Shown: positions 4,631 through 58,616 of the stretch, piece by piece | Layout: each line of letters starts with the position of its first letter | How positions within the stretch are numbered: position 1 is the stretch's first letter | Assembly: GCF_007745175.1 (NCBI RefSeq) | Contig: NZ_CP036271.1 | Span: forward strand, 6,659,439 to 6,723,438 | From: Caulifigura coniformis | Lineage (GTDB): Bacteria; Planctomycetota; Planctomycetia; Planctomycetales; Planctomycetaceae | Reading direction: 5' to 3' | Length of the DNA: 64,000 bases | The notes under the pieces: generated by a model | The model's database searches: none | What the model was told of the DNA's origin: nothing | What the model saw: the letters and a program-made list of their open reading frames with translations, nothing else | Translations under genes and position numbers: made by a program

Positions 4631-4688
4631 GGCGATTCGGACTCGCGCCGGCAGGGGGGCCGCCCCTGCCGGGGGACGCCAGGGCTGA

Positions 4689-4769
4689 TCACTTTCTCAG
4701 GATGGGCCAGTTCGTCGTTGCCGCAAAATGACTTGCGGTAACGAAAGTCGACCGACCGTGAAAAAGTGA
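4689..4769. repeat. Dispersed hairpin repeat, unit A copy 1
   Basis: An 81-bp unit bounded by near-perfect inverted ends, TCACTTTCTCA and TGAAAAAGTGA. Inside is a second inverted repeat: TCGTTGCCGCAA (4715-4726), a 6-base loop, then TTGCGGTAACGA (4733-4744), with one mismatch that would be a G-U pair in RNA. Two more copies lie at 57984-58077 and 58417-58498 in the same orientation. The nested palindromes suggest a REP- or MITE-like element. The gap from 4631 to 5252 holds this unit, unit B and a promoter; no gene is supported in it. Confidence 0.85.
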
Positions 4770-4829
4770 CTCGCCCCGCCCCAATCCCCACCCGCCCAAG
4801 CACTTCCGAATACCGAGGACCAAGCTCTC

Positions 4830-5061
4830 CCGCGCAACCGCCCCCGTCATGGTGGAGGACACCATGATCACAACCACCGTCAACCTGTCGTCACACAACC
4901 CGGCCCGGCCGGCTCCATGTCCGCGCCACCCACGCTCTCCCGATCCTTCCACTGAACTTCCGCAGGAAAAGAGGGCGAGGAGTACAGGACCACCCACACA
5001 ACGCGCCCTCCTTGCCCCCCTCGACGTCAAACACCTCCGCAGTGTTCCCAATCCCTGCCCG
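4830..5061. repeat. Dispersed repeat, unit B copy 1
   Basis: About 232 bp that matches 58160-58390 closely. The core at 4926-5044 differs from the other copy at only one position. Conservation does not favour any codon frame, so the small open frames on both strands are probably not genes. It carries an inverted repeat GAGGGCG...CGCCCTC with a loop of about 27 bases. It directly follows unit A, as in the second copy. Role unknown. Confidence 0.85.
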
Positions 5062-41168: not shown

Positions 41169-42164
41169 TTAGAACTCGCCGACGGGCAGACCGTCCTCAC
41201 GACGCAGCAGGCGCTGGTAGGTTCCCATGCGGGTGCTCGGTCCGGAGGCCGTCTGGTTCGTCGAATCGAAGTGGATGTTTTCGCTGATGAAGCCGACGTG
41301 TCCGTCGCCGAAGACGAAGTGAGCGCCCCCTTCGTGGCTGCTCCCGAAGGCCTTCTCGGCGTAGTCGTTTCCAGGATTGGGCGGGAAGTTGAGGCGGGCG
41401 TCGTTCTGGCAGGCGCCGAGGACCATTCCCGCAGCGCTGCGGCCGTCGTTGTCGTAGCGTGACACGCCGACCCATCCGCCGGCGGTGGCAATCCAGTCGC
41501 GTTCGCCGACCATGAAGGTGTTGCTCGAGCCATCAACCACGTCGCGCAGCTGGATGGAGCCGCTCGGCTGCATCATGCCCAGACCGTCGCGCGCCTGCGT
41601 GAGGTAGGTGTTGGAGTTGCAGGTTCGCGTTCCGGCGCAGGCGATGTAGTTGGAAGTTCCGACATAGGCCCGGTTGTCCGGGAAGTTCGGCCGGAACGAG
41701 CTGTCGAACTCGCGGGACGCGCCGTTGTTGTCGGCGGGGGCAATGTCGGTCGGGCAGCGGTAAGCCGGCAGGGGCGTCCGTGCCAGAATTGCGAGGGTCG
41801 GGCTCTGCAGCATTTCGGTCAGCGTTCTCGAACCGACGCCCATCTGGTTATAGAGCGGCCCCTGATCGAGGAAGGGGAGGATCAACGAGCCCCAGCCCCA
41901 CGCGGCCCTTGGCCCGCTGCCGACGACCGGCACGCCGGGGTTCACGTTGTGGACCATGGCCGGCGGGAGCATGCGATGCACATCCATGTAGTTGTGCATC
42001 GCCAGCCCGATCTGCTTGAAGTTGTTGCGGCACTGCGTCCGGCGGGCGGCCTCGCGGGCCTGCTGCACGGCGGGCAGCAGGAGTGCAATCAGGATCGCAA
42101 TAATCGCGATCACCACGAGCAACTCAATCAGCGTGAACCCTGGTCGACGAGCGCGGCGCCACAT
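41169..42164 (-). CDS. DUF1559 family protein with prepilin-like N-terminus
   Basis: A 331-aa DUF1559 protein. The N-terminus RRPGFTLIELLVVIAIIAILIALLLPAVQQ is a type IV prepilin-like signal with cleavage after Gly and Glu at +5. The C-terminal block HFVFGDGHVGFISENI is the family's H-x-G-DG signature. Planctomycetes have dozens of such genes; some have been linked to envelope fibres or uptake, but the role is not established. It lies in the middle of the glycan operon with 148- and 200-bp gaps on its sides, longer than elsewhere. Confidence 0.94.
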   Translation of the reverse strand: MWRRARRPGFTLIELLVVIAIIAILIALLLPAVQQAREAARRTQCRNNFKQIGLAMHNYMDVHRMLPPAMVHNVNPGVPVVGSGPRAAWGWGSLILPFLDQGPLYNQMGVGSRTLTEMLQSPTLAILARTPLPAYRCPTDIAPADNNGASREFDSSFRPNFPDNRAYVGTSNYIACAGTRTCNSNTYLTQARDGLGMMQPSGSIQLRDVVDGSSNTFMVGERDWIATAGGWVGVSRYDNDGRSAAGMVLGACQNDARLNFPPNPGNDYAEKAFGSSHEGGAHFVFGDGHVGFISENIHFDSTNQTASGPSTRMGTYQRLLRREDGLPVGEF

Positions 42165-52988: not shown

Positions 52989-54014
52989 TCAGAATTCTCC
53001 GATCGGCTGCCCGTCATTTCGAGCGAGGAGCCGTTCCCAGGTGGAATCGATCACACCGTCTGTCCTCAGCGTCTGGATGGACTGGTCCATGTCCGCGTCG
53101 AGATTCTCGTTCACAAAGCGGACCGAACCGTCTCCCAGCACAAAATGCGATCCACCCGTATGGCGGCTGCCGAATACGCGCCGGGCCGTCGCCTGGCTTC
53201 CGCCGGGAGCTGGCCAGTAGGCGGTGAAGTTCAATTTGTACCGTCCGCAGCCCATTGCGTCGGCCAGACCTTTCTCGGAGTTTTGCCGAACTCCGCGCGT
53301 TGCCAGAACGACGCCCGCATTCAGCGTTTGCGAAGACGCGTTCGTCGTGTGCATCTGCCAGCATCGCTCCCCCACCACCGCTGTATTGCTGGTTCCGTCG
53401 GTCATGTCTCGAAATGAGATGGAGCTGTTCACGAAGAAGACGCCATTGGCCGCGCCGGATGGAGCGCCGGGATTGCGCCGGAGCTCGCCGCTGCTGTTCA
53501 CGCCAACGTAGCTCGACAGCGCGGTCGACTGCTTTGTGGTGTTGGTGACTCCGATGAACTGTCGCGCCGAGTTGAGAACTGGCCCGGTGTCCGTCGGGCA
53601 GCGGAAGGCCTCCATGGGCTTCTGCATCGCCTGAAGGTTCGCGGGGATGTCCAGCGATTGGGGCATCGGCAGCCTGCCAATATCGAGCTGATTGAACAGG
53701 GGAGCCTGGTCAATCTGCGGCAGCAGGAACGCGCTCCAGGCCCAGTTCCCCGTATCGATGTCCACGTTCTGGTCTCCGGTGGTGGGATCGGGATAGATCT
53801 GTACACAGCCCGGCGGGAAGCTCTTGTGGACATCGGCGTAGTTGTGCAGCGCCAGCCCCAACTGCTTCAGGTTGTTTTTGCACTGGGTGCGCCGGGCCGC
53901 CTCGCGGGCCTGCTGCACAGCCGGCAGCAGCAGTGCAATCAGGATCGCGATGATCGCGATCACCACCAGCAGCTCAATCAGCGTGAATCCGAAACGACGT
54001 CGCGCAGTCGACAT
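52989..54014 (-). CDS. DUF1559 family protein with prepilin-like N-terminus
   Basis: A 341-aa DUF1559 protein, paralogous to the one at 41169-42164. N-terminus RRRFGFTLIELLVVIAIIAIL with prepilin-type cleavage site; C-terminal signature HFVLGDGSVRFVNENL. It is the second gene of the leftward glycan operon, placed directly after a small lipoprotein, the usual planctomycete arrangement. Confidence 0.94.
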   Translation of the reverse strand: MSTARRRFGFTLIELLVVIAIIAILIALLLPAVQQAREAARRTQCKNNLKQLGLALHNYADVHKSFPPGCVQIYPDPTTGDQNVDIDTGNWAWSAFLLPQIDQAPLFNQLDIGRLPMPQSLDIPANLQAMQKPMEAFRCPTDTGPVLNSARQFIGVTNTTKQSTALSSYVGVNSSGELRRNPGAPSGAANGVFFVNSSISFRDMTDGTSNTAVVGERCWQMHTTNASSQTLNAGVVLATRGVRQNSEKGLADAMGCGRYKLNFTAYWPAPGGSQATARRVFGSRHTGGSHFVLGDGSVRFVNENLDADMDQSIQTLRTDGVIDSTWERLLARNDGQPIGEF

Positions 54015-57888: not shown

Positions 57889-57983
57889 GGATCAGTCCTC
57901 GATGGCGGCGCGCGGGAATCGAGGGAACAGCTTACCGCAGTTGGGATTCGAGGGCACGGTGCCCGGTACTCGGGCAGGGCTGG

Positions 57984-58077
57984 TCACTTCTTCAAGATGG
58001 GCCAATTCATCGTTGGGTTGCGCCGTTGCCGCAAAATGACCTGCGGTGACGAGAGACGACCGACTGTGAAAAAGTGA
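57984..58077. repeat. Dispersed hairpin repeat, unit A copy 2
   Basis: Ends TCACTTCTTCA and TGAAAAAGTGA. The internal hairpin CGTTGCCGCA/TGCGGTGACG is kept with substitutions. It is 13 bp longer than copy 1 owing to an insertion just before the hairpin. Confidence 0.85.
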
Positions 58078-58110
58078 CGCGTCCCGCCCCAATCCCCACC
58101 CGCCAACGCA

Positions 58111-58152
58111 CTCCCGACTCCCGACTCCCGACTCCCGAGTACCGAGTACCGG
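58111..58152. repeat. 7-bp tandem array, CTCCCGA
   Basis: Four perfect CTCCCGA copies followed by two diverged GTACCG(A/G) copies. The same place in the first composite copy (near 4801-4830) has only degenerate traces, so the array has expanded or shrunk between copies. Confidence 0.85.
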
Positions 58153-58159
58153 GCCCCCC

Positions 58160-58390
58160 CGCGCAACCGCCCCCGTCATAGTGGAGGATCCCATGAACAC
58201 AACCACCACCAACCCGTCGTCACACAACTCGGCCCGGCCGGCTCCCTGTCCGCACCACCCACGCTCTCCCGATCCTTCCACTGAACTTCCGCAGGAAAAG
58301 AGGGCGAGGAGTACAGGACCACCCACACAACGCGCCCTCCTTGCTCCCCTCGACGTCAAACACCTCCGCAGTGGTCCCGATCCCTGCCCG
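58160..58390. repeat. Dispersed repeat, unit B copy 2
   Basis: Close match to 4830-5061, with one difference in the 119-bp core. Flanked on both sides by unit A copies in the same direction, unlike the first copy, which has A only on the left. Confidence 0.85.
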
Positions 58391-58416
58391 TGCCTGAGAG
58401 TTGCGCGCAAGGCTGG

Positions 58417-58498
58417 TCACTTTTTTCAGGATGGGCCAGTTCGTCGTTGCCGCAACATGACTTGCAGTGACAACAGACGACCTAATTGTGAAAAGTGA
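58417..58498. repeat. Dispersed hairpin repeat, unit A copy 3
   Basis: Ends TCACTTTTTTCA and TGAAAAGTGA. The central GTTGCCGCAA arm is kept, while its partner arm is more diverged (TTGCAGTGAC). Confidence 0.8.
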
Positions 58499-58616
58499 CT
58501 CGCCCTGGGTACTCGGGAGGCAGGAGGCGGGAACATTCGCGGGATCGGGCCCCGCATTTTCTGTCGGGTTGGCGTAAGATCAGCGAATCGCATGCAGCGG
58601 CCATGGGGAGGACGGG

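Follow-up and report, generated by a model that had tools for sequence, protein, structure and literature searches.

A probable family of non-autonomous composite transposable elements with a constrained non-coding core in Caulifigura coniformis

Two sites 53 kb apart in the chromosome of Caulifigura coniformis share a composite repeat built of two units, A and B, part of which is nearly identical between them. Is this pair a private duplication, a mobile element, or a conserved sequence with a function of its own? The window analysed here is a stretch of 64,000 nucleotides (bases 6659439-6723438), and the chromosome searched is a single contig of 6,761,146 bases. We conclude, with a probability of roughly 85%, that the repeats form a genome-restricted family of non-autonomous composite transposable elements whose B module holds a constrained non-coding core.

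Results

The window copies belong to a chromosome-wide family

The closest match between the two sites pairs bases 4926-5044 with 58255-58373, 119 bases with a single C/T mismatch at 5016, and the original prediction had both the coordinates and the description of this pair right. The ungapped repeat around it (4802-5061 and 58131-58390) is 92% identical, and gapped blastn aligns the copies at 83% over 416 columns and the second A at 85%. A-unit matches within the window lie at 4693-4776, 58001-58084 and 58422-58505. Both the ungapped and the gapped comparison bear out the predicted A-B-A arrangement at site 2 (copy 2); site 1 (copy 1) is without the right A (Table 1). Copy 2 has the same ten bases on either flank, and the best candidate for a target duplication at copy 1 agrees at 9/10 positions by eye.

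Table 1 Features of the two repeat copies, in window coordinates
Feature	Position	Strand	Basis
Copy 1 left A (palindromic end unit, short subtype)	4680..4776	+	start CAGGGCTGATCAC; alignment with 58 other A copies
Copy 1 B module, no right A after	4777..5061	+	genome blastn; right A absent here
Copy 1 block 1 of B (CGCAACC ... GGTGGAGGA)	4830..4859	+	low-change stretch; common to most A-less copies
Copy 1 42-nt core (block 2) of B	4971..5012	+	10 changes/42 columns vs 314/195
Copy 2 left target duplication GGTACTCGGG	57965..57974	.	target-duplication comparison, L011
Copy 2 left A (long subtype)	57975..58084	+	A-copy alignment
Copy 2 B module	58085..58395	+	blastn
Copy 2 block 1 of B	58159..58188	+	low-change stretch in B change count
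Copy 2 42-nt core (block 2) of B	58300..58341	+	B change count
Copy 2 12-bp spacer, B to right A (GAGAGTTGCGCG)	58396..58407	+	spacer comparison
Copy 2 right A, end GCCCTG	58408..58507	+	A-copy alignment
Copy 2 right target duplication GGTACTCGGG	58508..58517	.	target-duplication comparison, L011

Searching the chromosome by blastn with 4689-5061 as query returned at least 69 matches (best 40 of 84 candidates), and B alone returned 40, comprising 36 substantial matches and four short, diverged ones. Across these 36 B places in the 6.76-Mb chromosome, a left A is present in 32 and a right A in 27; both flank B in 26, six have the left A only, one has the right A only, and three have neither in full. 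Since the A/B repeat recurs at 36 chromosomal places, the window pair is far beyond chance.

An event private to the two sites, either a simple segmental duplication or a gene-conversion pair, would account for 119 bases with one difference, and recent copying or gene conversion had been proposed. The copy count refutes this reading, as B is present not twice but 36 times in its own chromosome and the window pair is two of these copies. The genome-wide copies moreover have differing flanks and carry target duplications, and among the branches listed in the B tree the window copies are not each other's nearest relatives: L001 clusters with L002, and L011 (copy 2) with L016, L003 and L028. The probability of a private event is negligible, and the 119-bp identity is therefore attributed to a constrained core and shared ancestry.

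Two other repeats were seen in the window. Positions 329-424 hold a tandem 12-bp array of CCTGAGAGAGAG with several perfect copies, and a separate 190-nt direct repeat (41960-42149 and 53810-53999, 82% identical) probably reflects paralogous genes.

Complete units have inverted ends and 10-bp target duplications

The 26 complete units span CAGGGC to GCCCTG, most of them 505-547 bp long and typically about 515 bp, and these terminal inverted repeats extend into TGGTCACTTTTTCA and TGAAAAAGTGACTC. With a target duplication defined as at least 8 of 10 equal flank positions in a 10-bp window, allowing one base of slack, 22 of the 26 units have one, 13 of them perfect, compared with 9 of 650 mismatched left-right pairs. 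The complete units L005, L015, L023 and L090 are without a 10-bp duplication. Two A-B copies, L002 and L013, also show exact 10-bp duplications, the right one lying at the end of B (by eye).

Copy number, ends and target duplications together identify A-B-A as a non-autonomous, MITE-like composite transposable element, and the earlier wording, that site 2 looks like a composite element, proved apt. The family is transposase-less and has many intergenic copies (36 places, non-coding B, intergenic bias), as MITEs do; and, as in MITE-bounded composites, two copies of a unit bound a co-moving segment in 26 A-B-A units with outer duplications. Movement of the bounding unit on its own, the other hallmark of such composites, was not seen: neither the A scan (best 40 of 76 candidates) nor the end-motif scan of the genome detected a solo A. 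The end-motif scan gave 87 matches against 7 in the control, and A adjoins B only (comparison by eye); the few matches with 3 mismatches away from B are at control level by eye. The four units without duplication, and the lack of a recognised transposase with matching ends, weigh against the transposon reading.

Insertion points avoid long open reading frames, with a frame of at least 400 codons crossing 3 of 24 rejoined sites versus 231 of 400 random window points. A hairpin or terminator as the target was rejected, the folding energy of empty sites being no different from that of controls (p 0.17). A Planctomyces MAG, the nearest named relative by plsX (84% identity in PlsX), lacks both A and B at its orthologous rpmF-plsX locus.

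A 12-bp spacer precedes the right A in all 27 copies that have one. Its consensus, GCGAGTTCCGCG, equals the left flank of the A-B copy L013, which matches all 12 spacer bases; the runner-up among 32 left flanks reaches 10/12 against any spacer variant. This identity points to the L013 site as the possible birthplace of the A-B-A form, which would have arisen there or from it. Separately, the left flank of L021 and the right flank of L090 share CTCACGGCA, a 9-10 base duplication, with the two copies about 3.8 Mb apart; the copies may have recombined, or the N run of L090 may mark a misassembly.

The A unit and a parent transposase

By folding, each A is an imperfect palindrome of about 100 nt, and pairing holds in 87.5% of cells over 59 A copies. 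RNAalifold missed the palindrome at default penalties and recovered it only with relaxed ones. Covariation over the same 59 copies was at shuffle level, so that selection on pairing is not supported.

No other element with the ends of A-B-A turned up in the genome, nor any transposase with matching ends among the families searched, and the autonomous parent has possibly been lost. An ISAs1 parent was rejected for the absence of PF13808 (DDE_Tnp_1_assoc, ISAs1 transposase), which had 0 matches in the genome although the controls were detected. IS4/IS5 parents were rejected as well, the seven PF01609 places having different ends by eye. One A-B-A copy does contain an IS701 transposase gene (L091:1860-3370; NCBIfam NF033540, E 1.2e-100); since this insert lies within a (GAGTACC)n stretch, with inverted ends of its own and what by eye may be a GTAC duplication, we read it as nested and not as the parent.

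In our reading, two direct, palindromic A copies of about 100 nt bracket the B module of about 300 bp, and the whole A-B-A is mobilised together. A DDE-type transposase supplied in trans would presumably cut the target with a 10-bp stagger and join the outer CAGGGC/GCCCTG ends to it.

B is non-coding and contains a constrained core

B is not coding. Its variability is flat with respect to position modulo 3 (0.057, 0.077, 0.075), the reading frame varies between copies and is broken by frameshifts, five hand-composed B translations had no Pfam match at E<=1, and plasmid tblastn with B gave no match. That B encodes a small conserved protein is hence very improbable, even though most copies have an open frame preceded by a GGAGGA-like sequence and an ATG; the leader ORFs of copies without A (A-less copies) also terminate at scattered positions, and no reading frame of B is conserved between copies. 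Neither outcome named beforehand as refuting the original prediction, a mere two copies or a conserved protein, was observed.

Changes in B were counted by FastTree and parsimony over 33 copies, with L030, L090 and L092 excluded from the alignment. A 42-nt core accumulated 10 changes in its 42 columns, compared with 314 in the remaining 195, or about 7 times fewer per column than the rest of B, although recombination among copies may inflate the count outside the core. The same holds for terminal-branch changes (7 in the core versus 215 in the rest of B) and for singletons (5 versus 76). A second low-change stretch of B is CCGCGCAACCGCCCCCGTCA. The family is thus a transposed repeat with a constrained core. 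The selected non-coding function that had been suggested is partly supported, by the constraint and the lack of a conserved frame.

The core and the bases after it can form a ten-pair stem in 33/33 copies, in which three variable pairs stay G-C or G-U on the + strand; the A-B(-A) copies show no two-sided change. Rfam 15 gave 0 matches in the window at the gathering score and none at E<=1 across 15 loci, some with A and some without, and copy 2 has no sigma-70-like promoter.

Copies without A lie mostly upstream of genes

A degenerate core pattern occurs at 48 places in the genome. The core model R2, built from 13 A-less and the two window copies, gave 63 matches in its own genome at E<=0.01, and 52 of these are strong (E<=3.4e-11). 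Sorted by position and by eye, 35 of the strong matches belong to the A-B(-A) family and 17 are A-less; L092 (346 kb), one of the 36 B places, was counted as A-less in this sorting. Thirteen A-less copies have a mean identity to the B consensus of 0.725 in block 1, 0.588 in the middle and 0.756 in block 2 (for L152 the block 2 alignment failed); as these copies were found via the core, their core conservation is subject to ascertainment and block 1 alone is free of it. In an alignment of 15 rows, made up of 13 A-less copies and the two in the window (L152 included), three pairs of the core stem show two-sided changes, a result equalled in 43 to 145 of 500 shuffles, so that support is modest. 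One place, L159 (G000:C1 3316000-3318000), was found through block 1 and carries block 1 alone, with no core visible by eye; an Hsp70-like start (protein read by eye) lies some few hundred bases downstream.

Gene context was assessed with calls from a simple, uncalibrated codon-score gene finder. For 30 of the 36 copies the downstream gene is on the same strand (p 0.002 against the intergenic make-up of the window alone), and the neighbouring genes are divergent at 21 sites, co-directional at 13 and convergent at 2; at co-directional sites only, 9 versus 4 favour co-orientation (p 0.27). The 19 A-less places (17 strong, 2 weak), which have one place in common with the 36-copy set, are upstream of and co-oriented with a gene in 15 cases, which is not significant alone (p 0.06). 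Their downstream genes gave partial matches, below full-length cut-offs and with most fetched stretches stopping within genes, to models of LepA, FtsH, ABC-F, Stp1-type PP2C, exopolyphosphatase and deoxyhypusine synthase. Other domains in the downstream products are DUF58, PSCyt1/PSCyt2, esterase, DinB_2, cupin, aconitase-family and MacB.

As the core also occurs without A upstream of genes, its most likely role appears to be that of a transcribed hairpin or leader, or of a protein-binding cis-site, an assignment we make tentatively, at a little under even odds. Counting against our overall reading are the shuffle-level covariation of A, the modest support for the core stem and its lack of two-sided changes in the A-B(-A) copies, and the co-orientation figures that fall short of significance, at the A-less places and at co-directional sites. 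A bolder version, which we consider rather unlikely, is that the element spreads a constrained, structured 5'-leader whose core acts in RNA upstream of many genes. A-less copies would then be domesticated insertions retaining the regulatory part, and a lineage-specific regulon (lepA-like, FtsH-like, ABC-F-like, PP2C, exopolyphosphatase-like) would have been gained by transposition.

The family is restricted to one of the genomes sampled

Repeat DNA gave only three weak matches in 169 other genomes of the family sample, which we read as chance, and the core pattern is absent from the same 169. A model of A (R1) matched its own genome only among 392 phylum-sample genomes, that is, none of the 391 others. 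In 170 family genomes R2 gave two weak matches outside its own, both inside predicted genes (2/169 relatives), and relatives carrying the repeat were accordingly rejected. Plasmids, genome_contigs searched with the exact core and viral_contigs searched with two exact patterns gave no match. No published description of the A-B-A repeat was recognised in the literature listings searched.

This distribution bears on the order of events. B may have been a host leader or regulatory family first, one copy of which was captured by a transposon to give A-B-A. Such an origin fits the 17 strong A-less copies, which have diverged further than the A-B-A ones and have two blocks in common, and also the position of the 15 of 19 places, upstream of genes that include lepA-like, FtsH-like and ABC-F-like ones. 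Yet the latter figure does not reach significance by itself, and no such leader exists in the same-genus genome G005 or in 168 other relatives, although the downstream genes are common ones; we find this history possible but doubtful. Better placed, if still short of being favoured, is the proposal that B is an old selfish repeat, its core kept since the mobilising enzyme needs it in cis and its gene-start position being a target preference. A lineage-specific parasite would be expected to be missing from relatives, as the whole family is in both its A-bearing and A-less forms, and the abstract of PMC3049150 interprets BOX repeats as parasitic. Against it, constraint on the core extends to terminal branches, an outcome not predicted if selection were for mobility only, and A-less copies retain the core, though those were found via it.

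Discussion

In the composite transposable family described here, the non-coding interior of a mobile repeat is under stronger constraint than the ends and persists near gene starts even where the ends are missing, and such instances can be counted. Whether transposable repeats rewire gene regulation in bacteria can thereby be tested directly. A further question concerns the enzyme, namely what transposase would leave 10-bp duplications at such ends when the genome has no recognised parental element.

IS231-related mobile insertion cassettes are transposase-less, have IS-like ends, are moved in trans and produce 10-12 bp duplications. Our family is likewise a transposase-less unit with IS-like ends, but no IS4-type transposase with matching ends was found here.

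BOX repeats are composed of the sub-units boxA, boxB and boxC. In Streptococcus pneumoniae, the abstract of PMC3049150 describes them as small dispersed sequences with extensive secondary structure, nearly restricted to the species and thought to affect co-transcribed genes. By description, not by sequence, the present family is similar in being small, dispersed, structured, nearly species-restricted and built from sub-units, and differs in its 10-bp duplication and the separate life of its inner module. The Correia elements of Neisseria, according to passages of the review PMC10969869, are MITEs lying mostly immediately upstream of genes, whose expression they can change. Their location is alike; Correia elements, however, carry promoters, in contrast to copy 2, which is without a sigma-70-like one.

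A close parallel in organisation lies in the TIME-COMPs, in which, as the abstract of PMC13367494 puts it, two direct or inverted MITE copies bound and move a segment; the TIMEs themselves originate from transposons of the Tn3 family, and genes are the cargo of their composites. Transposase-less repeats, inverted ends, two copies moving a bounded segment and target duplications are common to both. By comparison, the family here has a 10-bp duplication, no solo end unit seen in the scans, a cargo that is non-coding and constrained, and no recognised parent. The family is thus ordinary in kind, a MITE-like composite, and unusual in its direct palindromic ends and in a constrained core that is also found without them.
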